Positions 34,248 to 53,364 of a stretch of DNA of 64,000 nucleotides are shown here, one piece after another; position 1 is the stretch's first letter; every line of letters begins with the position of its first letter. A program made the position numbers and the translations under genes. Source of the DNA: Fibrobacter sp. UWT2 (lineage in GTDB: Bacteria; Fibrobacterota; Fibrobacteria; Fibrobacterales; Fibrobacteraceae); the NCBI RefSeq assembly GCF_900142545.1, contig NZ_FRBF01000008.1:1-64000 (forward strand), written 5' to 3'. Below the pieces are notes generated by a model. It was not told the DNA's origin. It searched no databases and worked only from the letters and a program-made list of their open reading frames with translations.

Positions 34248-36041
34248 ATGAAACGTCTTTTACCTTTTGCTTTGGTGGCAATGCTTGCCGCTTCCGCTTT
34301 TGCCCAGGACGAAATTCGTGAGGCAAAGAACTTAATCCAGAACGGGCAGTGCGCCGAGGCCATTGCTCCCCTCCAGAGAGTCTACAAGTCCAGTTTCCGT
34401 AAGTCCTCCGGCGAAAAGGCTGCCGTGATGCTCACGGAATGCTACTTGCGCGAACACAAGCGCGACGAAGCCTTGAAGCTTTCTTCCCGCTTCTTGGAAT
34501 ACTACGTGAACACGGTGTATCGCGAACGTATGGAACTGGCAAATGCCATCGTGATGGTTGAAAAGGGTAACGTCTACGAAGGCGTTGAAGCGATGCTCCG
34601 CATTCTGGCCTACTCCAAGAACCCGGCCGCCCGCAGCCGTACCAAGGATGTGGCCATTCAGACGCTCGCCGCTTCGCTGTTGACTGCCGACCAGTTGCAG
34701 GCTCTTTTGGAAAAGTACCCGGTCGACAAGGACATCGTGGGCTGGATGCAGCTGCAGATTGGCCGTGAATGTCAGAATTCCAAGCGCTACCGCGCCGCCC
34801 GCTACTGGTACAAGAAGGTTGTGGCTGGTGGGGTAGCCGAAAACCTTTCCAACACCGCCGAGAAGGGACTTGAATCTTTGGAAGACCGCGGCGCCGGTAT
34901 GCCGACGGTGCTCGTGCTCGCCCCGTTGTCCGGCGACTATGCCGAATTTGGCTCGGCGGCCATTCAGGGCGTGATTCTCGCTCACGAAAAGGCCGGACTC
35001 AAGGGCAAGGTGAACCTGCGCGTGGCAGACACCCGTGCTGACGCCGCCCAGGCGCTCCTCCGCACCCAGCAGGCTGTCAACCAGGATAGCATTGTTGCAA
35101 TCATCGGCCCCATTATGAGTGCCCCGGCCGCAACCGTTGCCGCCTGGCTCGGCAGCAACTTCCAGAATATCCCGATGCTTACCCCGACCGCTACCGACGA
35201 CGGTATCGCCAAGATGGGCCCGAACATTTTCCAGGTGAACATTACCATGGATAACCTGGCAAAGAGCATCGCCGACTTTGCGACCAAGTGCTTGAACATT
35301 CGTGAATACGCTATCTTGAGCCCGCTCGGTGGCTATGGCGCCTCGATGTCGCAGAGCTTTACCACTGCCGTGGAACGCCGCGGCGGTTCCGTGATCGCCT
35401 TCCGTAACTACGAAGAAGGTCGCCCCGACTACAAGACTGAATTCAGCCTGCTGCGTGATGTTCGCTTCAAGCAGTTGAACCGCCGCCAGAACATTGCCCG
35501 CGGCGCAAGTGACCTTGATGCCGTGAATGCCAAGGAACGCCGCTTCTATATGCAGGATTCCACGTTCAACATTCCGGGTATCTTCATTCCGGCAACGAAC
35601 CCGGGTGATGCAGGCCTCATGGCGGGCCAGGTGGCCTTCAACAAGATTTCGGGCGTGCTGCTCGGTGCTTCCGGCTGGTACGGTCGCGAACTCTTGATCC
35701 AGGGCAAGCGCCAGGTCGACAGTTCCTACTTTAGCGTGCCTGCCATGGATATGGGCGGCAACAACGACGGCCTCAAGAAGTTCGTGAGCGACTTCAAGGA
35801 ACGCTGGGGTGCCGAACCGGGCGAAGACAGGGTGAGCGGACTCAGCTATGACGCTGCAAACATCGTGTTCAGCTCCATGGAGAAAAAGCCCAACAGCCTC
35901 ACGAACCTGATCAACTACACCGCAAACTTCCATGGCGTGTATGGGGAAATCAAGTTCAAGCGAGGCATGAACATGAACACCAAGATCGTGACCGTGAACA
36001 AGGGCAAGTTCGAAACCGTCGAAGGCTGCCCGGCTAAGTAA
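34248..36041 (+). CDS. Periplasmic binding protein, LivJ/LpoA-like, with N-terminal repeats
   Basis: 597 residues. Signal peptide ending ASAFA, then about 190 residues of TPR-like helices (LIQNGQCAEAIAPLQRVY, EKAAVMLTECYLREHKRDEA), then a type I periplasmic-binding domain starting MPTVLVLAPLSGDYAEFG with IVAIIGPIMSAPAATVAAWL. This two-part build resembles LpoA, the activator of penicillin-binding protein 1A, and the PF13458 binding proteins of amino-acid transporters. No permease or ATPase genes are nearby, so a non-transport role such as peptidoglycan-enzyme control is plausible. Confidence 0.75.
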   Translation: MKRLLPFALVAMLAASAFAQDEIREAKNLIQNGQCAEAIAPLQRVYKSSFRKSSGEKAAVMLTECYLREHKRDEALKLSSRFLEYYVNTVYRERMELANAIVMVEKGNVYEGVEAMLRILAYSKNPAARSRTKDVAIQTLAASLLTADQLQALLEKYPVDKDIVGWMQLQIGRECQNSKRYRAARYWYKKVVAGGVAENLSNTAEKGLESLEDRGAGMPTVLVLAPLSGDYAEFGSAAIQGVILAHEKAGLKGKVNLRVADTRADAAQALLRTQQAVNQDSIVAIIGPIMSAPAATVAAWLGSNFQNIPMLTPTATDDGIAKMGPNIFQVNITMDNLAKSIADFATKCLNIREYAILSPLGGYGASMSQSFTTAVERRGGSVIAFRNYEEGRPDYKTEFSLLRDVRFKQLNRRQNIARGASDLDAVNAKERRFYMQDSTFNIPGIFIPATNPGDAGLMAGQVAFNKISGVLLGASGWYGRELLIQGKRQVDSSYFSVPAMDMGGNNDGLKKFVSDFKERWGAEPGEDRVSGLSYDAANIVFSSMEKKPNSLTNLINYTANFHGVYGEIKFKRGMNMNTKIVTVNKGKFETVEGCPAK

Positions 36042-44637: not shown

Positions 44638-45513
44638 TTAGTGATTAGTGGTTAGGAACTCTAGCAGCTTGGGCATGAGTGCGGTTGCGTCTTTCACGCC
44701 CATGTCGTAAAGTTCCACCAGTTTCGACTTGTCTTTTTCGAGGCGCGAAATTTTGAATTCAGCGCTCGGACGAATCATGAACGCAGAACCTTGAGCGACT
44801 AGCTCTTCTAGCGTACGCAGGCACTGATTATAGCGAATGTGGCGGTTCCTTGCCGCCTCGATAAACTTCGGGTACTTGCGGTAGAAAATCTTGAACAGGG
44901 GAATCATGGAGTTCGGTTTCTTGACAAAGCCTTCGGGTTGCGTGACGATCACAACCTGCTTTTGATAACCCATGCCCGTGAATACTTCGAACGGAATGCT
45001 GTCGCCGACACCGCCGTCCAGAAGTTTCATGCCATCGACTTCGACGATATGGCTCATGAGCGGAAGCGATGCCGAAGCGCGAATCTTGTCCATGTCTTCG
45101 GGCTTGTCCAAATCGCGTGTGAGCAAGTATTCGGGGCCGCCGGTTTCCAAGTTCGTGGCGACTGCGTAGAACTTTGTTTCGGCCGTGTTCTCGCGGAACT
45201 TTTCAAAGTCAAACGGATCGACCACGCGCGGGATTTGGTTGTAGCAATAATCCAGTTCAAAAAAATCACCGGTGCGAATCAGGTTGCCCCAGCTCATGTA
45301 GCGTTTGCTTGCCGAATGAATGGTGTCGAGACGCTTGTTGCGCTCGCGCTGTTCAGACAAATAGCTGCAAAGGTGGGTTGCGCCTGCAGATGTTCCGGCG
45401 CAAGCGCCAAACTTGATTCCGTTATCTAAAAATACATCCAGTACGCCGGCCGAATACGCTCCGCGCATGCCGCCGCCTTCGACAGCAAGCGCAATATCCT
45501 TGTACATTGCCAT
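44638..45513 (-). CDS. Patatin-like phospholipase
   Basis: 291 residues from the ATG that overlaps the NUDIX stop (TAATG). GGGMRG (oxyanion hole, about 13-18), GTSAG with nucleophile Ser42, and DGGVGDSIP with Asp166 form the Ser-Asp dyad of the patatin family. It probably hydrolyses acyl esters of phospholipids. There is no signal peptide, so it should be cytoplasmic or membrane-peripheral. Coupled to the NUDIX gene. Confidence 0.88.
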   Translation of the reverse strand: MAMYKDIALAVEGGGMRGAYSAGVLDVFLDNGIKFGACAGTSAGATHLCSYLSEQRERNKRLDTIHSASKRYMSWGNLIRTGDFFELDYCYNQIPRVVDPFDFEKFRENTAETKFYAVATNLETGGPEYLLTRDLDKPEDMDKIRASASLPLMSHIVEVDGMKLLDGGVGDSIPFEVFTGMGYQKQVVIVTQPEGFVKKPNSMIPLFKIFYRKYPKFIEAARNRHIRYNQCLRTLEELVAQGSAFMIRPSAEFKISRLEKDKSKLVELYDMGVKDATALMPKLLEFLTTNH

Positions 45514-46046
45514 TAGGCATTCTCCATAAGCCACAGAAAATCTTTCGGATGTTCCACGAATTTTTCGGGGTGCAACTTGTGCTTTGCGAAAAATTCTTCG
45601 CGGGTCATCCAGGTAAAGCTATCGACTTCGCCCGGCTGCGGCACAAGTAAATCCGCTTCCTTGTCGCTGAGCGTAATCTTATAAACGTCGTAGTATTCGT
45701 TGTCGAGGTAAGAGCCGCCGTTAAGCACGCTTTCGTGCTTAGCCTCGAATAGGTATTCGAGGTCGCGCGAACTCTTGTGCACGCCCAGTTCCTCGCGCAG
45801 TTCGCGCACGGCGGCATTCACGCTGGAATCGCCAGCCGAAATGTGGCCTGCGCAACTTGTGTCGAAAAGCCCCGGATTGTTTTCTTTGACGCGGCTTCGC
45901 AGCTGGAACAGAATGCGACCTTTGCTGTCGAACGCCCAAATATGTACCGTGCGGTGCCACAGCCCCTTGGCGTGAACTTCGGTGCGTCCGCGAGCATAAC
46001 CCGCCGGCGTTCCGTCTGGATTCAAGATATCAATTTGCTCTTCCAT
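45513..46046 (-). CDS. NUDIX hydrolase
   Basis: 177 residues. The NUDIX box reads GHISAGDSSVNAAVRELREE, continuing LGV; the first glutamate of the GX5E signature is Asp here, while the REXXEE part is intact. WHRTVHIWAFDSKGRILFQLRS resembles the IDI-like/YfcD subgroup. It would hydrolyse a nucleoside diphosphate derivative or act on a pyrophosphate; the substrate is unknown. Its start overlaps the preceding kinase gene by 17 nt. Confidence 0.87.
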   Translation of the reverse strand: MEEQIDILNPDGTPAGYARGRTEVHAKGLWHRTVHIWAFDSKGRILFQLRSRVKENNPGLFDTSCAGHISAGDSSVNAAVRELREELGVHKSSRDLEYLFEAKHESVLNGGSYLDNEYYDVYKITLSDKEADLLVPQPGEVDSFTWMTREEFFAKHKLHPEKFVEHPKDFLWLMENA

Positions 46047-48522
46047 GGGACATCCGTTCTTTAAGTTCCCTGACGAGTTTTTTGTACTCGCTCATCAAGT
46101 CTTCGTGTCTAACGCGGACAAAGTCGTAGTCGCCTTCGCTGCAGGCGAATTCCATCAGCTTGGCAATACTTGCGATGTTGACTGCGCCAATGAATAGCGA
46201 TGAACTCTTTAAGGTTTGCACCATGAGACGATAGCTTTCGAAATCTTCTTCCTTGAACAACTTGTTCAAAATTTCGTCGAATTGCTTTTCCACATAGAGC
46301 ATGATTTTTTTGCGATACAGGGCTTCGTTCCTTTCGCAGCAATAAAGTCCCACGGACACGTTTAGGAGATCGTTGGGCAAGTTTTCGGTAGTCTTCTTCG
46401 GTTCCTGCACCACCTTCTTTTCTGGCTTTTCTTCGGCCATGAGAGCGACAGCTTCTTCTTTTTGAGGCAGTTCGTCAAAGCGGTTTACCAGTTCTTTGGG
46501 CAAGTACTTCAGCAATATGGTGAACAATGCATCTTCGTGAACCGGCTTCGTCAAGAAATCCGCAAAGCCCATGGTTTCGCAAATGGTCTTTGCCGAAGTG
46601 TTGTCATCGGCCGTAAGCATGATAATCGGCGTATGCTTATTGGGGTGATCGTCAAGAGTCTTCATGATGGTGAGAATGTTCAAACCATCGATGATAGGCA
46701 TCGTGTGATCGAGGAAGATGATATCGTAGTGATTGCGCCTGAAGTTTTCGATAGCCTCCATGCCGTTGGATACGGAATCGAAACGGGCGAAGGTCTCTTT
46801 CATGAGACCGCCCATCACGCGCAAGTTCATGGGGACGTCGTCAATGGCAAGAATTGAAGCGTTGGGAGCGTAGAAGTGAATGGACGTATTTTCGGAGGCC
46901 TGCACGAATTCGTTGTAACGAGTCTTGAAGTCTCCCATCAATTCGTTCTTCACCACCTTTTGAGGGATGATGATTTCAATCACCGGCAAACCGTCGGCAA
47001 TGAGGCTGTTCTTGATTTCGCCTCCCAGTGCTACCACGAGCATCTTCACCAGGGAAAGGGAGGCTCCCGTCCAGCTGACACCGGCATCAGGAATGTCGAT
47101 GATCAAGTTGATTTTCTGAACCTTGACAGCGTTGTCTTCGTCTTCAATCCAATGGTAACCGATCTGGATGATGTTCGCCCCGTTTACCACTAGATGGTCG
47201 GCGTTAAACAGGATGTTGCTTATGATTTGTTGCAAGCGGGATTCATCGCCTTCGAGGTGAGTCGGAACCGAGGAATCTACCAGCAATTCAAACTCTGCCG
47301 ATTTCTTTCGGTTGCGAGCGGCGCTAAGGCTGTCGCAAAGGACCGCGAACAAGTCGTATTCCTTGACAGAGATTTCGAGACTGCTGGTGCGGATCTTGTT
47401 CATGTCCAAGATGTCGTTGGACAACAAAAGCAGCTGCTGCCCCGAGGCGCGCATGTCGGCGATATATTCCTTCAGCGAGGAATCCTGTGATTCTCTCAGC
47501 ACGATGGCGCCTATGTTCAAAATGTTCATGGCGGGTTCGCGGATATCCTGGCCGACGGATTCCATCATGCGTAGGCGATCCAGTTCGTCGCTAGCCAAGT
47601 GGTTCCTTAAATTGTATTCGCGGTGCCTGCGGACTAAGAAGAATCGGATGCCAAGCCCCGTCAGGAACAATAGCATCAAGAGGCCTACCACCCAGAATAC
47701 CAGGAAGGACAGGCGGTCCAAACCATCGGATACGTCTTCGGCGGCAACCATTCCGGCGAGCACGAAATCATCTTGGTGGAGCTTTGCCATGTAGAAGTAA
47801 TAGGTCGCATCACCGATGACAAAATTCCTGGAGGCCGAAAGGCCGCGGTCCATATCCTGGCGGAGCTTTCCGTAGATTTTGTCGATATCAGTATTTTTCC
47901 AAATGGAATCTTTGAACCATTTTCCGGTGTTGTTCTGAATCAGGACCTTGCCGTCGTTATCGATGATTTGGACGAAGCATTTCTTGTCAAAGCAATCTAC
48001 GTCGAAGAAGTCTGTGATCGGAATTTGCTTGAATTGCAGGTACAGTACGAAACGGACATTGAGACGGTTGTAAACGGGAACGCCTAGCATGATTCCCATT
48101 TTTTCGCTATAGCAAATGGTTTGCTTGCCACGGAAGGATTCCATGATGCAGCGGTAATTTTCGTCAGGCAGAGTGAAGACCGAGTCCGCCGTATGTGCCG
48201 TTCCATCCAAGGAGATAAGCCCGTATATGGTGCTTTCGTCCTTCAATTCTGCGAGGCTCAAAAAGTCTTCGATGTGAGACCCGTCCGCTTCGATTTTACG
48301 AGAAATCACGGATAGGGTGTTCAGGCGCATGTGCATTTTTTCGTTGGCGAGATCTGCAATCAATACTGCCTGTTGGGATACCTGCTTGGACACGTAAACG
48401 TTCAAAAGGGTATCAAGCTTTACGCGGAGTAGCACGCAGACAAGGCACAACACGAATATGACGGCGGCGAGCCACACCACCATCTTGATGTTGATCTTTG
48501 CGCTTCTAGGGGTCAATTCCAT
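46030..48522 (-). CDS. Hybrid histidine-kinase-like protein with lost phospho-histidines
   Basis: 830 residues. Spans at about 13-33 and 273-296 bracket a periplasmic sensor of about 240 residues. Next is a kinase-like core: the H-box position reads VGQDIREPAMNIL with Gln325 where His is expected. An N-box is recognisable (QQIISNILFNAD), but the ATP-binding glycine motifs are not. A receiver follows (AIDDVP at 559, Asp605 in IIFLDHTMP, Lys659), then a C-terminal HPt-like domain where VQTLKSSSLFIGA has Gln769 in place of His. So only the receiver looks competent. It overlaps the BMP gene by 17 nt. Confidence 0.85.
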   Translation of the reverse strand: MELTPRSAKINIKMVVWLAAVIFVLCLVCVLLRVKLDTLLNVYVSKQVSQQAVLIADLANEKMHMRLNTLSVISRKIEADGSHIEDFLSLAELKDESTIYGLISLDGTAHTADSVFTLPDENYRCIMESFRGKQTICYSEKMGIMLGVPVYNRLNVRFVLYLQFKQIPITDFFDVDCFDKKCFVQIIDNDGKVLIQNNTGKWFKDSIWKNTDIDKIYGKLRQDMDRGLSASRNFVIGDATYYFYMAKLHQDDFVLAGMVAAEDVSDGLDRLSFLVFWVVGLLMLLFLTGLGIRFFLVRRHREYNLRNHLASDELDRLRMMESVGQDIREPAMNILNIGAIVLRESQDSSLKEYIADMRASGQQLLLLSNDILDMNKIRTSSLEISVKEYDLFAVLCDSLSAARNRKKSAEFELLVDSSVPTHLEGDESRLQQIISNILFNADHLVVNGANIIQIGYHWIEDEDNAVKVQKINLIIDIPDAGVSWTGASLSLVKMLVVALGGEIKNSLIADGLPVIEIIIPQKVVKNELMGDFKTRYNEFVQASENTSIHFYAPNASILAIDDVPMNLRVMGGLMKETFARFDSVSNGMEAIENFRRNHYDIIFLDHTMPIIDGLNILTIMKTLDDHPNKHTPIIMLTADDNTSAKTICETMGFADFLTKPVHEDALFTILLKYLPKELVNRFDELPQKEEAVALMAEEKPEKKVVQEPKKTTENLPNDLLNVSVGLYCCERNEALYRKKIMLYVEKQFDEILNKLFKEEDFESYRLMVQTLKSSSLFIGAVNIASIAKLMEFACSEGDYDFVRVRHEDLMSEYKKLVRELKERMSHGRAN

Positions 48523-49603
48523 CGACTACCCCCTTGACGAACCAGTCAAATCGATTCAACATGACGTCGTCGGTCATGCTTTCGCCTTCGCCTACGCGAA
48601 CATTGCCTTGGTTATCGACAATGGGCCCGTAGAACACATCAAACTTTCCCTGGGTCAGCCTGAGCTTTTCATCTTCTACGACTTGACGAGTGGTGTCGTC
48701 CACGTTCCTTGTCAGGTCGGCCAGTTCCATGATGCCACTTTCGAGGCCAAGCCAGTAGGCACGCCCTTCAAACTTGTCCTGGATGATTTCGCGAATCTTC
48801 GGGATGTAGAAATTTTCCCAGCGCCAAACCGGGGCGGTCAAGAAATGATCCGGGAACCTTCTGGAGTTGTCCCTGTTGTAGCCGATAATCCATACGCCTC
48901 TGTCGTCGGCAATCTCGTAGGGAGACAGAGCATCTACGTGGGTGGCCAGAACGTCGACGTTGTGTTTGCTGAGCAGGTTGCGGGTGGCGTCGGCGGCCAT
49001 GGATTCATCGGTCCAGGAACCGGACCAGCTGACGTATACTTTGGCGTCCGGGTTGACTTTCTGTACGCCGAGAGTGAATGCGTTGATGCCGCGATTTACT
49101 TCTGAAATGTTGTATGCTGCCACGTATCCGATTTCGTTGGTCTTTGTCTTCATGCCGGCGACAATACCCGTCAGGTAACGCAGCTGGTACATGCGGCCAA
49201 AAAAGGTGGACAGGTTGGTAGACGTGTGAAGTCCCGTGGCATGCAGGAATTTCGTTTCGGGATGGTTTCTTGCTACGGCCAGTTCGTGTTCGCCAAAGCC
49301 GATAGAATTGGCGATAATGATTTTGGCTCCGTTCTGAATGGCCTGTTCCATGATGAATTGGGCCGTTGAATCGGTGGGCACGTTTTCGTAGTAGGCGACT
49401 TCCAGGTTCAAAAGCTTTTCGGCTTTCTGAATCGCCTCGTAATGGGTTTCGTTCCAACTATGGTCATTGCGAAGTCCCGTTAAAATCATGGCGACGCGGA
49501 ACTTCTGCTGGGTGTTCTGCACTTCGGTATCGGGGCCGAACATGATCAGAACGCCAATGATCATGGCGAGCGCAATCGTAGATGCTAGGACTGTCCATTT
49601 CAT
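48506..49603 (-). CDS. BMP-family (PnrA/Med-like) periplasmic binding protein, membrane-anchored
   Basis: 365 residues. A hydrophobic N-terminal segment (about 4-22) without a clear cleavage site suggests an anchored protein. The rest fits the basic membrane protein family (PF02608): MILTGLRNDHSWNETHYEAI, GAKIIIANSIGFGEHEL, NEIGYVAAYNISEVNRGINA and GVWIIGYNRDN. Family members bind nucleosides or autoinducer-like ligands. No ABC permease or ATPase is near; it is encoded between two hybrid kinases and overlaps both (4 and 17 nt), so sensing rather than transport is likely. Confidence 0.85.
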   Translation of the reverse strand: MKWTVLASTIALAMIIGVLIMFGPDTEVQNTQQKFRVAMILTGLRNDHSWNETHYEAIQKAEKLLNLEVAYYENVPTDSTAQFIMEQAIQNGAKIIIANSIGFGEHELAVARNHPETKFLHATGLHTSTNLSTFFGRMYQLRYLTGIVAGMKTKTNEIGYVAAYNISEVNRGINAFTLGVQKVNPDAKVYVSWSGSWTDESMAADATRNLLSKHNVDVLATHVDALSPYEIADDRGVWIIGYNRDNSRRFPDHFLTAPVWRWENFYIPKIREIIQDKFEGRAYWLGLESGIMELADLTRNVDDTTRQVVEDEKLRLTQGKFDVFYGPIVDNQGNVRVGEGESMTDDVMLNRFDWFVKGVVDGIDP

Positions 49604-52239
49604 CGTTCTTCAAGCCCCCTCTGGATGTTTTCGATCAGCTCGGCATGTAAGGCCATGGCTAGGTCGTGATTTTCGTGAATGACTTTCAGTCGGGATTCTC
49701 GGCTTGCGTTTTCGAGATTGCGGAATTTTTCGGCCATGGAAACGGCACCGATAGCAATCGACGAATCGTAAAGAACGTGCATATAGAAACGGTAGTTGTC
49801 CCAGTCGGAATTTCGGTAGCAGGCGTCCACGTTTCTGCAGAGGGGAGATGCTACGTATTCCTGCAACATTTCGACATAGATTTCTTCGTCGTCGGCGCAG
49901 TAGTTCAGGCCTGCCTTGATGTCCAGGAATTCTCCCAGGGACTTGAAGCGGTCTAGCGGCGTTGTCGCGGTAATCGAGCGCAACTCGATTTCGTCGTCGT
50001 CGAAGACGGAATCAATCTTGTTGTTCGGTACGTTGCCGGCGGCATTAGCTGCGCTGGCGGAGGGGATAACCGGTTCGTTCAAGTCTTCGGGCGTGAGTAC
50101 CAGTTGCTTGGACAGGTACCACTTCAGGGCGCGGCGCAGGTCTCTTTCCTTGAGAGGCTTGATCAAGTAGTCTGCGAAACCTTCTGCCAAGAAGGAGTCC
50201 TTGGTAAGGGATTCTCCTTCGGAAGCGAGAGCGATAACGGGGGTGTCCTTGTTCGGGAACTTGTCCATCATCTTCATTTTTCTGAAGACGTCTATGCCGT
50301 CCATGACAGGCATCATATGGTCCAAGAAAATCAAGTCGTAGTGTCTCGATTCCACGAGTTGCAAGCACTGATGGCCGCTCAGGGCCTCGTCGATTTTCAC
50401 CTGGGAATTCTTCAGGAATCCGCGGAACATCTTGAGGTTCAATTCAACGTCATCGACAATCAGGATTCGTGCTTCGGGAGCCAGGAACACATCGGAAAGG
50501 TCCTTGTTCTTGTGGGCGGCGTTCCTGTAACGCATGGTAAAGTCGCCCATGGGTTCCGTGTTCAGCACGAGCTGCGGAATCTCGACCAGGAACGACGAGC
50601 CTTCGCCGTAGCGGCTATTGATGGTCATATGACCTCCGCACTTGGCAAGGAGTTCCTGAGTAAGGCTTAATCCCAGTCCAACACCTTCGATTTCGTTCTT
50701 TTCGGCAGAACTGGGAAGAATGTATTTCTTGAAAATGGATTTCTTCTCTTCGGCGCGGATTCCGATACCTGTATCCTTGACGGCTATTTTTAACATGATG
50801 TAGTCGTCAGAGCGCAGGGCTCCAATGGGGGGGAGACTGTCGAAGCCCACCGACAATGAAACGCCGCCCACTTCAGTAAACTTGGTGGCGTTCGAAAGCA
50901 GGTTGTTGATAATCTGGATGATGCGGTTCTCGTCACCCCACAGGCAAGACGGAATGTCGGGGTCGCAATCGATATGGAAGGTCAAACCCTTGGCTTTGAT
51001 CTTCGGTTCGTTTTCGTTGTAGCATTCCTGCAAAATCGTGAATACTTCGTATTCCATAGATTCGATGCTTAGACGTCCCGATTCGATCTTGGTGACATCC
51101 AGGACATCGTTTACTAGCGAAAGGACTCCCTGGCCTGCACTTTGGATATTGTTGGAATATTCCTTCATGCTTTCGTCGTGCAGGTCTTTCTGGATGATGG
51201 AATTCATGCCGAGAATGCCGTTGATGGACGAACGGATTTCGCTGCTCATGCTGGTGAGGAATGCAATCTTGGAATGGTTGACGCGGATAAGCTGTATATG
51301 CTTTATGAATGCGGCGACAATCAAGACGACGAACAATACGTAACTCAGGAAAATGATAACGGATGTTCGCAGAATGGCGATGTTCAGGGGCTTCCAGAGT
51401 TGTTCTTCTTCGACTAGGCGGATGACATACCATTCATCCTGTATAAGGGTCGAAAATACGCGGTAGTCCTTGCCCCTCAAATTTAAGACGAAGGGGTCTC
51501 CCTTGGCATAAGAGGCGCCTTTGGCGAGATTTTCTTCATCGGATCCCCAGAATTCCGCCGACAGGTAGTTGCGACCGTTCTGGGTAATGTCGGTATGGGA
51601 AATCACCGAGCCTTTCTTGTCAATAATGACGAGCATATTTGACAAGTCGCTCTTCTTGACATTTGCAAGCAGGTCCTTCAAGTATACATCAATGGCGAGA
51701 ACACTTTTCTTGTCCGAAAGTCGCAAGCTAATGGTCACCACCTGCTCGCCGCTATACGGGTTCATGTGGGTCGGAATCAGGGCGACCTTGTCTTTTTCCA
51801 TAGGGGCGTTCTGGTACCACGGACGATTCGAGGGAACGTAACCTAAGGCAGGAGTCCAACGTTCGCCGCTAAAGAACTCTTCGCGGAGAATGCCGAACAT
51901 GCTGCACAAGACAATATCGTTTGAATGCTTGTAATATTCCGCTTCGGAAACCAACAACGATTCGATTTGCGCCTGCGTGGCTCCATGTTCCAAACTTTTT
52001 TCTGCAATGTGAGAGGTCACTCGTAGAACCGAAGCGCCTCGCGCCAAGAATCCGTTAATCGCTTCGGCGTCTTTTTCGTTGGAGTATGTGCCTGAAAGTA
52101 ACGTTTCGTGCTTGACGGTCTCCGTGTAATCTTGGAGCAAATAAAAGCTTACCGCGGCAAGGCCAATGCTTACCGCAACAAGGATGCCCCCGTAAAAGGC
52201 CCTCAAGCGTTTTTCACTTTCTATAGTCTTGAAGAACAC
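49600..52239 (-). CDS. Cache-domain hybrid histidine-kinase-like protein lacking the H-box histidine
   Basis: 879 residues from a GTG at 52239; an ATG at 52287 would add 16 residues but lies before the best promoter. Spans near 17-36 and 288-312 bracket a dCache-like sensor (SNRPWYQNAPMEKDKVALIP). The H-box reads FLTSMSSEIRSSINGILGMN, Ser333 in place of His. The ATP-binding domain is intact: NNLLSNATKF, DTGIGI, GVGLGLSLT. The receiver has Asp640 (LIFLDHMMP) and Lys694. The HPt-like end keeps His821 (YMHVLYDSSIAIGA), with Tyr for the usual Lys. First gene of a six-gene operon. Confidence 0.87.
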   Translation of the reverse strand: MFFKTIESEKRLRAFYGGILVAVSIGLAAVSFYLLQDYTETVKHETLLSGTYSNEKDAEAINGFLARGASVLRVTSHIAEKSLEHGATQAQIESLLVSEAEYYKHSNDIVLCSMFGILREEFFSGERWTPALGYVPSNRPWYQNAPMEKDKVALIPTHMNPYSGEQVVTISLRLSDKKSVLAIDVYLKDLLANVKKSDLSNMLVIIDKKGSVISHTDITQNGRNYLSAEFWGSDEENLAKGASYAKGDPFVLNLRGKDYRVFSTLIQDEWYVIRLVEEEQLWKPLNIAILRTSVIIFLSYVLFVVLIVAAFIKHIQLIRVNHSKIAFLTSMSSEIRSSINGILGMNSIIQKDLHDESMKEYSNNIQSAGQGVLSLVNDVLDVTKIESGRLSIESMEYEVFTILQECYNENEPKIKAKGLTFHIDCDPDIPSCLWGDENRIIQIINNLLSNATKFTEVGGVSLSVGFDSLPPIGALRSDDYIMLKIAVKDTGIGIRAEEKKSIFKKYILPSSAEKNEIEGVGLGLSLTQELLAKCGGHMTINSRYGEGSSFLVEIPQLVLNTEPMGDFTMRYRNAAHKNKDLSDVFLAPEARILIVDDVELNLKMFRGFLKNSQVKIDEALSGHQCLQLVESRHYDLIFLDHMMPVMDGIDVFRKMKMMDKFPNKDTPVIALASEGESLTKDSFLAEGFADYLIKPLKERDLRRALKWYLSKQLVLTPEDLNEPVIPSASAANAAGNVPNNKIDSVFDDDEIELRSITATTPLDRFKSLGEFLDIKAGLNYCADDEEIYVEMLQEYVASPLCRNVDACYRNSDWDNYRFYMHVLYDSSIAIGAVSMAEKFRNLENASRESRLKVIHENHDLAMALHAELIENIQRGLEER

Positions 52240-52283: not shown

Positions 52284-52290
52284 TCAAGAC

Positions 52291-53364
52291 ATGAAGTTCG
52301 AAAAAGATGTATTGATGGGGCTCCTGAAAAGGGCCGAAACCGAAGGCGTTTTCAACAAGGCGGTCGCGGGATTCATATTACCCGACGGAAGTCGCGAATT
52401 TTTGACTCTCAACACGCCCGAAAACACGGTTTTTGACATTGCGAGCCTTACCAAGGTGTGTCCTACCTCCACACTCGCCTTGAGTTACATCCTCGAAGGT
52501 AAACTTTCGGTTGACACCAAGGTTATCGACTACATCCCTGAACTTAAGACAAATTACCGCGACGACATTCGGGTGTTTCACTTGCTGACTCATAGCCTAG
52601 ATTACCGAGTGCCTATGAAGACTTTGCGCACGCTGCCTGCCGAAGGAATCTTGGAAGCGCTTTATACGTACCAGTTCGAAAAGGCTCCTGGGGCTGACTT
52701 CAATTACGGTAACCCCGCCAGCGTATTGCTGGGAATGATTTTGCAGCGCCTTATGGGCAAGGACTTGCAGCAGCAAGGCCGCGAGCGATTCTTTATTCCA
52801 CTCGGTATGACTCGTTCCGGCTGGGATCCGTTGACTCGCGACTGGAATCCGATTCCTAAAGATGAAATCTCGCCGACGGAAATCTGCAGCTTTAGAGGTC
52901 GCGAAATCCAAGGAGAAATCCACGATGAAAGCGCCTGGGTTTTGCGAAAGCTGTTCCCTGTCGGCAGCGCCGGCATGTTCAGCTGCGTGCCCGACTTGTT
53001 GAATTTTGTACAAACTATCTTGAAGGACGGTGTCGCTGCAGACGGTAAGCGCATTATGCCTGCGGGCATTTTGAAGATGGTTAGTGAAAACGCCTTTGCG
53101 CTCGATTCGGCTAGCAAGTATTCTACGGCAAAAGATGCCTGCACCGCTCTCGGCTGGGAGCTGAATAGTGCGAAGTTCATGGGCACCAAGATTTCGCCGC
53201 ACACATTCGGTAAAACCGGATTCACCGGCGCAAGCATCGTTGCCGACCCTGACCAAGGTGCAGCCGTGGTGCTGCTCAGCAACTTTACCTATCCGCACCG
53301 CGAAGCGAACGCTGACCGCATCCATGCCTTCCGCGCGACGCTTTCCGACGCCTTTTTCGGATAA
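52291..53364 (+). CDS. Class C beta-lactamase-like serine hydrolase
   Basis: 357 residues. SLTK at 52-55 (SxxK nucleophile), Tyr139-Gly-Asn (YxN) in FNYGNPASVLLGMI, and FGKTGFTGASIV near the C-terminus (KTG motif) define the serine beta-lactamase/DD-peptidase fold. No signal peptide is visible, so the site of action may be cytoplasmic; many such proteins are esterases. Divergent from the kinase operon and 17 nt before the TauE-type gene. Confidence 0.88.
   Translation: MKFEKDVLMGLLKRAETEGVFNKAVAGFILPDGSREFLTLNTPENTVFDIASLTKVCPTSTLALSYILEGKLSVDTKVIDYIPELKTNYRDDIRVFHLLTHSLDYRVPMKTLRTLPAEGILEALYTYQFEKAPGADFNYGNPASVLLGMILQRLMGKDLQQQGRERFFIPLGMTRSGWDPLTRDWNPIPKDEISPTEICSFRGREIQGEIHDESAWVLRKLFPVGSAGMFSCVPDLLNFVQTILKDGVAADGKRIMPAGILKMVSENAFALDSASKYSTAKDACTALGWELNSAKFMGTKISPHTFGKTGFTGASIVADPDQGAAVVLLSNFTYPHREANADRIHAFRATLSDAFFG

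Follow-up and report, generated by a model that had tools for sequence, protein, structure and literature searches.

Why should a gene for a BMP/PnrA-like (PF02608) binding protein lie between two genes for hybrid kinase-like proteins, and what might the three products do together? The question is raised by a window of 64,000 nt from Fibrobacter sp. UWT2 (contig NZ_FRBF01000008.1, positions 1 to 64,000), in which three minus-strand genes encode the hybrid kinase-like protein K1 (49600-52239, with a GTG start and an in-frame TTG at 52287), the BMP protein (48506-49603) and a second hybrid kinase-like protein, K2 (46030-48522). A preliminary description of this DNA proposed that the trio may form a new three-part sensor, and the layout on which it drew is confirmed by the coordinates, with overlaps of 4 nt between K1 and BMP and 17 nt between BMP and K2. 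The overlaps continue past K2, by 17 nt into a NUDIX gene (45513-46046, minus strand) and from there by 22 nt into a patatin gene. Both of these were considered as members of the system and rejected, since they also adjoin the beta-lactamase-fold (PF00144) gene, here termed BLA (52291-53364, plus strand), in species in which the site is empty. The NUDIX gene is an old neighbour that marks the right-hand boundary of the site, and the BLA gene, which is outside the system, marks the left-hand boundary. Elsewhere in the window (34248-36041, plus strand) is a gene for a Peripla_BP_6/LppC-like lipoprotein, with no linked transporter noted.

Profile scanning of K1 recognised the Pfam domains HisKA, HATPase_c and REC and a degenerate Hpt, the overall order being TM, dCache, TM, HisKA, HATPase_c, REC and Hpt remnant. 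In K2, the Pfam scan recorded REC and a sub-threshold HisKA, with HATPase_c not recognised, and the order is TM, dCache, TM, HisKA, a decayed ATP-binding domain, REC and Hpt. The periplasmic domain of each protein is flanked by two TM segments. The Cache domain of the window K1 and K2 escapes detection by Pfam alone, although that of K1 orthologues is recognised, and AlphaFold2 models gave a dCache fold for the sensor of K1 (pLDDT 85.8; best Z 21.3, with structural matches mostly to amino-acid receptors) and also for that of K2 (pLDDT 81.5; best Z 15.9), such that the Cache sensor previously ascribed to the first kinase is upheld and is shared by the second. The window K1 retains the Y-R-W-Y-D pattern of amino-acid-type dCache domains, and is expected on this account to read its ligand directly. 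The R-x-W-[YF] motif is absent in 55/55 sequences from the sensor common to K2 and its ancestral type, the kinase Kb, and K2, without this usual small-molecule motif, is expected to read ligand through the BMP protein; for both sensors, the motif positions are in part those of PMC11245519.

The catalytic parts of the two proteins are degenerate. At the phospho-accepting position of HisKA, the window K1 has Ser (FLTSMSSEIRSS) and the window K2 has Gln (MMESVGQDIREP). When the His and Asp residues were compared across the 13 Fibrobacter genomes with the trio and the Ka and Kb kinases of related loci, the phospho-accepting His was absent from 13/13 trio K1s (S, R, N or T instead) and from 12/13 trio K2s (Q, T or K instead); it is kept in all Ka and Kb of the related loci and in 72/72 Kb of a wider locus set. 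The ATP-binding domain of K2 scores about 20-30 bits (22 in the window) against at least 177 in Kb, with damage to both G1 and G2, and the Hpt His of K2 is replaced by Gln. In K1 the ATP-binding motifs N, G1 and G2 are retained, by virtue of which it may be active in trans, and the Hpt remnant keeps its His and has lost its Lys. As predicted from these residues, ordinary kinase function is impossible for K1 and K2, the phospho-accepting His being missing, and the earlier designation of both proteins as kinases fails for the window on this point. The trio is not classed as an active hybrid kinase system, since the defining His was tested and found to be absent.

The receiver domains have been preserved, with the phospho-accepting Asp retained in K1 and K2 of the window and in every other K1, K2, Ka and Kb compared. 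Between species, dN/dS (Nei-Gojobori) is 0.03-0.16 for K1, BMP and K2, which indicates that all three are working genes and not pseudogenes; for the receiver domains it is 0.01-0.05 in comparisons with the window's nearest relatives, and in most comparisons made no other domain is as strongly constrained as REC. It is reasonably likely that the trio is a ligand-gated pseudokinase module, in which a purine-binding sensor subunit would feed a pseudokinase pair that modulates another phosphorelay. An unlikely, but serious, alternative is a DivL-like scaffold, in which the pair would sense ligand and control partner kinases or response regulators by binding, with no phosphate passing through its REC domains. 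DivL, in which Tyr occupies the position of the His, is a pseudokinase that works without kinase activity, the phospho-accepting His being replaced throughout a conserved family with function kept (PMC4211667), and in K1 and K2 the catalytic residues are similarly lost, yet purifying selection persists. However, the sensors of DivL are PAS domains and it lacks a receiver, whereas the trio has two hybrid pseudokinases with dCache sensors and a REC Asp, together with a binding protein, and the presence of that Asp in every K1 and K2, with REC under the strongest constraint in most comparisons, suggests that the REC domains are phosphorylated.

The trio is not a three-part sensor built anew, as had been thought possible; it derives from a larger BMP-BMP-kinase(-HD-GYP) system. 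The parent system consists of two BMP proteins and the dCache hybrid kinase Kb, often with a REC-HD-GYP phosphodiesterase, and an example is present on contig 12 of the same genome, where a second locus encodes REC-HD-GYP, the hybrid kinase Ka, BMPa, BMPb and Kb and is catalytically intact throughout. When GTDB genomes were searched with the BMP alignment, the best 80 loci comprised 17 from Fibrobacter and 63 from others, mostly Lachnospiraceae and other Clostridia. Outside the genus, the closest relatives of the Fibrobacter BMPs are from rumen and gut Lachnospiraceae (L089-L161), with about 47-60% identity to the window BMP, a distribution suggesting that the system has passed as a whole from one phylum to another. 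In L103, L123 and L134, Ka is fused to REC-HD-GYP, and an 1842-aa natural fusion in another Lachnospiraceae locus (L157:12124-17652) joins Kb, a Ka-like kinase and REC-HD-GYP; these fusions suggest the order Kb, Ka, REC-HD-GYP, and in the intact relatives the signal would pass from a BMP-purine complex to Kb, Ka and finally REC-HD-GYP. A search for fused BMP and kinase genes gave none. Searches of open-licence literature turned up no paper on the BMP-BMP-kinase arrangement, which is weak evidence of novelty, and the BMP-BMP-dCache kinase signalling family is apparently both widespread and undescribed. Clostridia BMP operons often also encode a protein of 633-652 aa in which a dCache sensor of the K1 type is joined to HD-GYP and REC domains (L092, L101, L127, L128, L137, L138, L140, L143, L147, L155), and two further Clostridia loci (L171:2182-4104 and L172:510-2498) encode 640-660 aa proteins in which the BMP domain lies mid-protein and the N-terminal half is without a Pfam match.

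The intact relatives are probably described by the model first suggested for the trio itself, that of an ordinary SBP-activated two-component sensor in which the ligand-bound BMP protein binds one or both partner proteins as active hybrid kinases. Such a model agrees with the domain order and with the intact Kb/BMP relatives, and PMC11113362 gives adjacent genes for 10/11 characterised SBP-kinase couples. For the trio, however, it is distinctly improbable, with both phospho-accepting His residues gone in 12/13 species and the ATP-binding domain of K2 decayed.

The trio has a traceable history at its chromosomal site, defined for comparison across the genus as the interval between the BLA and NUDIX genes. 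The preliminary description had asked whether the trio is conserved beyond the window strain, and K1-BMP-K2 is present at this one site in 13 Fibrobacter species, on which grounds a random or strain-specific juxtaposition was rejected. In addition to these 13 genomes, the site may be empty (e.g. G090, G011), may hold a full operon HD-GYP-Ka-K1-BMP-BMPb-Kb (G035, G010, G065), or may hold K1-BMP-BMPb-Kb (G009, G075, and G078, in which the contig begins inside K1); a fifth set has K1 and a shortened K2 without its sensor, with BMP absent (G024, G023, G072, G076, G077). In the phylogenetic tree all K1s form one clade (support 100), and K2 groups with the Kb of the window site (98), the shortened K2s falling in the same clade (98); K2 is a descendant of Kb. 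K1 lost its His first, as shown by G009 and G075, in which it is already gone, and K2 lost its His later, given that the K2 of G100, sister to the other 12, still has it. A split kinase in the BMP-less genomes, made up of K1x with His and dK2 with an ATP domain, is not claimed, as the N-box Asn is missing from dK2 and G2 from K1x. The losses have been stepwise, involving HD-GYP and Ka, the K1 His, BMPb, the K2 His and, in one clade, BMP with the K2 sensor, which would also be the course of a decaying remnant, a degenerating copy of the intact locus that no longer has a function. That reading is very improbable and is already largely refuted by the selection test, with reading frames open in 13 species, dN/dS low throughout, and the BMP pocket and REC Asp kept.

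The binding protein itself is a clear family member, matching PF02608 with 173.9 bits against a cut-off of 24.1 (E 5e-51). It has a single N-terminal hydrophobic segment, considered a TM anchor, and no lipobox Cys was seen in the alignment of the BMP with 22 relatives from the genus, which makes its previous description as anchored a reasonable one. PnrA (TmpC), BmpD, AtzT and the Brucella protein 3s99 belong to the same family, and PnrA and BmpD pair with ABC transporters, whereas the window BMP has none. Its pocket is close to that of AtzT: at the positions that line up with residues 45, 97, 165, 194, 218 and 220 of the AtzT guanine site, it has W, S, E, W, H and D. The Brucella protein 3s99, in which adenine is modelled, is identical at these six positions and shares with the window BMP the base-sandwiching and base-contacting residues. 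Among the trio BMPs the pocket is retained, apart from a single change of D to N in G019. AtzT binds guanine with a KD of 0.11 uM and adenine with a KD of 2.5 uM (PMC6834077), and the ligand of the window BMP, to judge by its pocket residues, is probably a purine base, a likeness that predicts a class of ligand and not one ligand.

Gene association indicates which of the two pseudokinases the BMP protein serves. In 79/80 of the best GTDB loci, the gene immediately downstream of BMP encodes a kinase with the K2/Kb sensor, the contig ending at that point in the 80th, and in 74 of those 79 the gap is at most 20 nt or the genes overlap. Strong BMP matches and the K2/Kb sensor profile occur in exactly the same 22/80 Fibrobacter genomes (Fisher p 4e-20, without kinship correction, strict co-occurrence within one genus being inflated by kinship), and 33/33 copies of the sensor in the genus are beside a BMP gene. 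Moreover, whole-genome searches of Clostridia placed the strong match to the sensor beside a BMP gene in 24/24 genomes. Five genomes have lost BMP and the K2 sensor together at the window site, while K1 kept its dCache, although this co-loss is probably one evolutionary event, as all five cases form one clade. From co-occurrence, adjacency and co-loss, the partner of BMP would be K2 and not clearly K1, and a BMP-K2 partnership is strongly inferred. Conserved gene linkage, the criterion for the SBP-sensor kinase class, is found for BMP and K2/Kb. An equal association of BMP with K1 and K2 is not favoured, because K1 is retained at sites that lack BMP, and in Clostridia BMP-Kb occurs with no K1; the preliminary description had joined BMP to both kinases, which does not agree with the gene evidence, nor with the amino-acid-type dCache motif of K1's own.

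The same associations bear on transport. In the genus, 53/53 strong BMP genes are in kinase operons and an ABC permease is beside 0/53 of them, the reverse of the outcome that had been named as refuting a signalling role. This adjacency test is able to come out the other way, as seen in other genera of the class, in which BMP adjoins a PF02653 permease (G044, G046, G047). No ABC genes were found near the trio, as had been stated before, and the search for PF02653, the permease of BMP importers, gave no match anywhere in the genome of the window strain, for which a role of the BMP in ABC transport was rejected. The least probable reading of all is that BMP is a transport protein using a distant unlinked ABC transporter, its place between kinases being incidental: BMP-family PnrA and BmpD are indeed nucleoside transport proteins (PMC7093131), but the window genome is without the permease, all 53 genus BMPs adjoin kinases, and distant Clostridia with the same BMP-kinase loci also hold separate ABC-type BMPs near PF02653 permeases. 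It is very probably correct, as proposed earlier, that BMP acts in signalling, as the component of a complex that binds ligand, and not in transport.

In the pseudokinase module as envisaged here, the membrane-anchored BMP would capture a purine base in the periplasm, most likely adenine or a close relative, and would dock on the dCache sensor of K2. K1, encoded in the same operon, would probably provide a second input through its amino-acid-type dCache. As autophosphorylation on the normal His is not possible, output must run through the REC domains and dimer surfaces, and the conserved REC domains of K1 and K2 are predicted to fill this role. Most likely the pair would bind to an intact phosphorelay, or pass phosphate to or from it, the best candidate being the paralogous locus REC-HD-GYP, Ka, BMPa, BMPb, Kb, with tuning of cyclic-di-GMP breakdown as the result. 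As a hypothesis, this output step is possible rather than probable. A paralogous HD-GYP locus is present in 11/13 trio genomes; G079 (100% complete) and G100 hold the trio without it, and that locus cannot be the sole target. The fuller proposal is tentative and is rated less likely than not: that a periplasmic binding protein gates two receiver-bearing pseudokinases, that its ligand state would be read out not as kinase activity but through altered docking, or altered uptake, retention or presentation of phosphate, by the pair within a separate phosphorelay, and that this state was reached as catalysis was lost, step by step, from a purine-sensing BMP-BMP-kinase-HD-GYP system that is widespread among gut anaerobes.

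Among known systems, the trio appears most to resemble Med-KinD of Bacillus subtilis. Banse et al. are said to have found in 2011 that Med, a BMP-family lipoprotein, is required by the dCache kinase KinD. The likeness is that of a BMP-family protein working with a dCache histidine kinase, and extends to the fold of both parts: the window BMP matches, among others, 2hqb (PDB title 'Transcriptional activator of comK gene'; E 1e-21), which we take to be a Med protein, and the structures similar in fold to the K2 sensor include the KinD sensor (4jgq, Z 14.6). However, KinD is an active kinase and the trio proteins are kinase-dead; Med is a lipoprotein and the window BMP is anchored by a TM helix; and the trio has two partner proteins with receiver domains, its relatives having two BMPs and an HD-GYP output. 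SBP-activated kinases, such as LuxP-LuxQ, likened to the trio by mechanism only, and the couples reviewed in PMC11113362, similarly have a binding protein that is encoded beside a dCache- or PAS-sensor kinase and carries ligand specificity. They differ from the window system, which is of the BMP class, membrane anchored, without a transporter and with pseudokinase outputs, and no BMP-type example is named in the passages of PMC11113362 consulted.

The BMP-BMP-dCache kinase family, often with HD-GYP, is widespread in rumen and gut bacteria, and its BMPs are easily mistaken for parts of transporters. The prediction that follows is that extracellular purines would be a signal for these fibre degraders, with cyclic-di-GMP the likely output. 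Moreover, the site provides a natural evolutionary series in which a kinase pair loses catalysis stepwise while sensors, binding protein and receivers stay, allowing the function of a receiver-bearing pseudokinase to be tested directly. Three weak BMP matches in the genus (G073, G074, G081) were set aside as part of a different pair, of a PBP with a peptidase C13. In three Fibrobacter genomes other than that of the window (L079:6892-10145, L080:8100-11332 and L081:3233-6398), a weak BMP-fold protein adjoins an ANF_receptor and Peptidase_C13 (legumain-like) protein, the pair in L080 being recognised from matching gene sizes.
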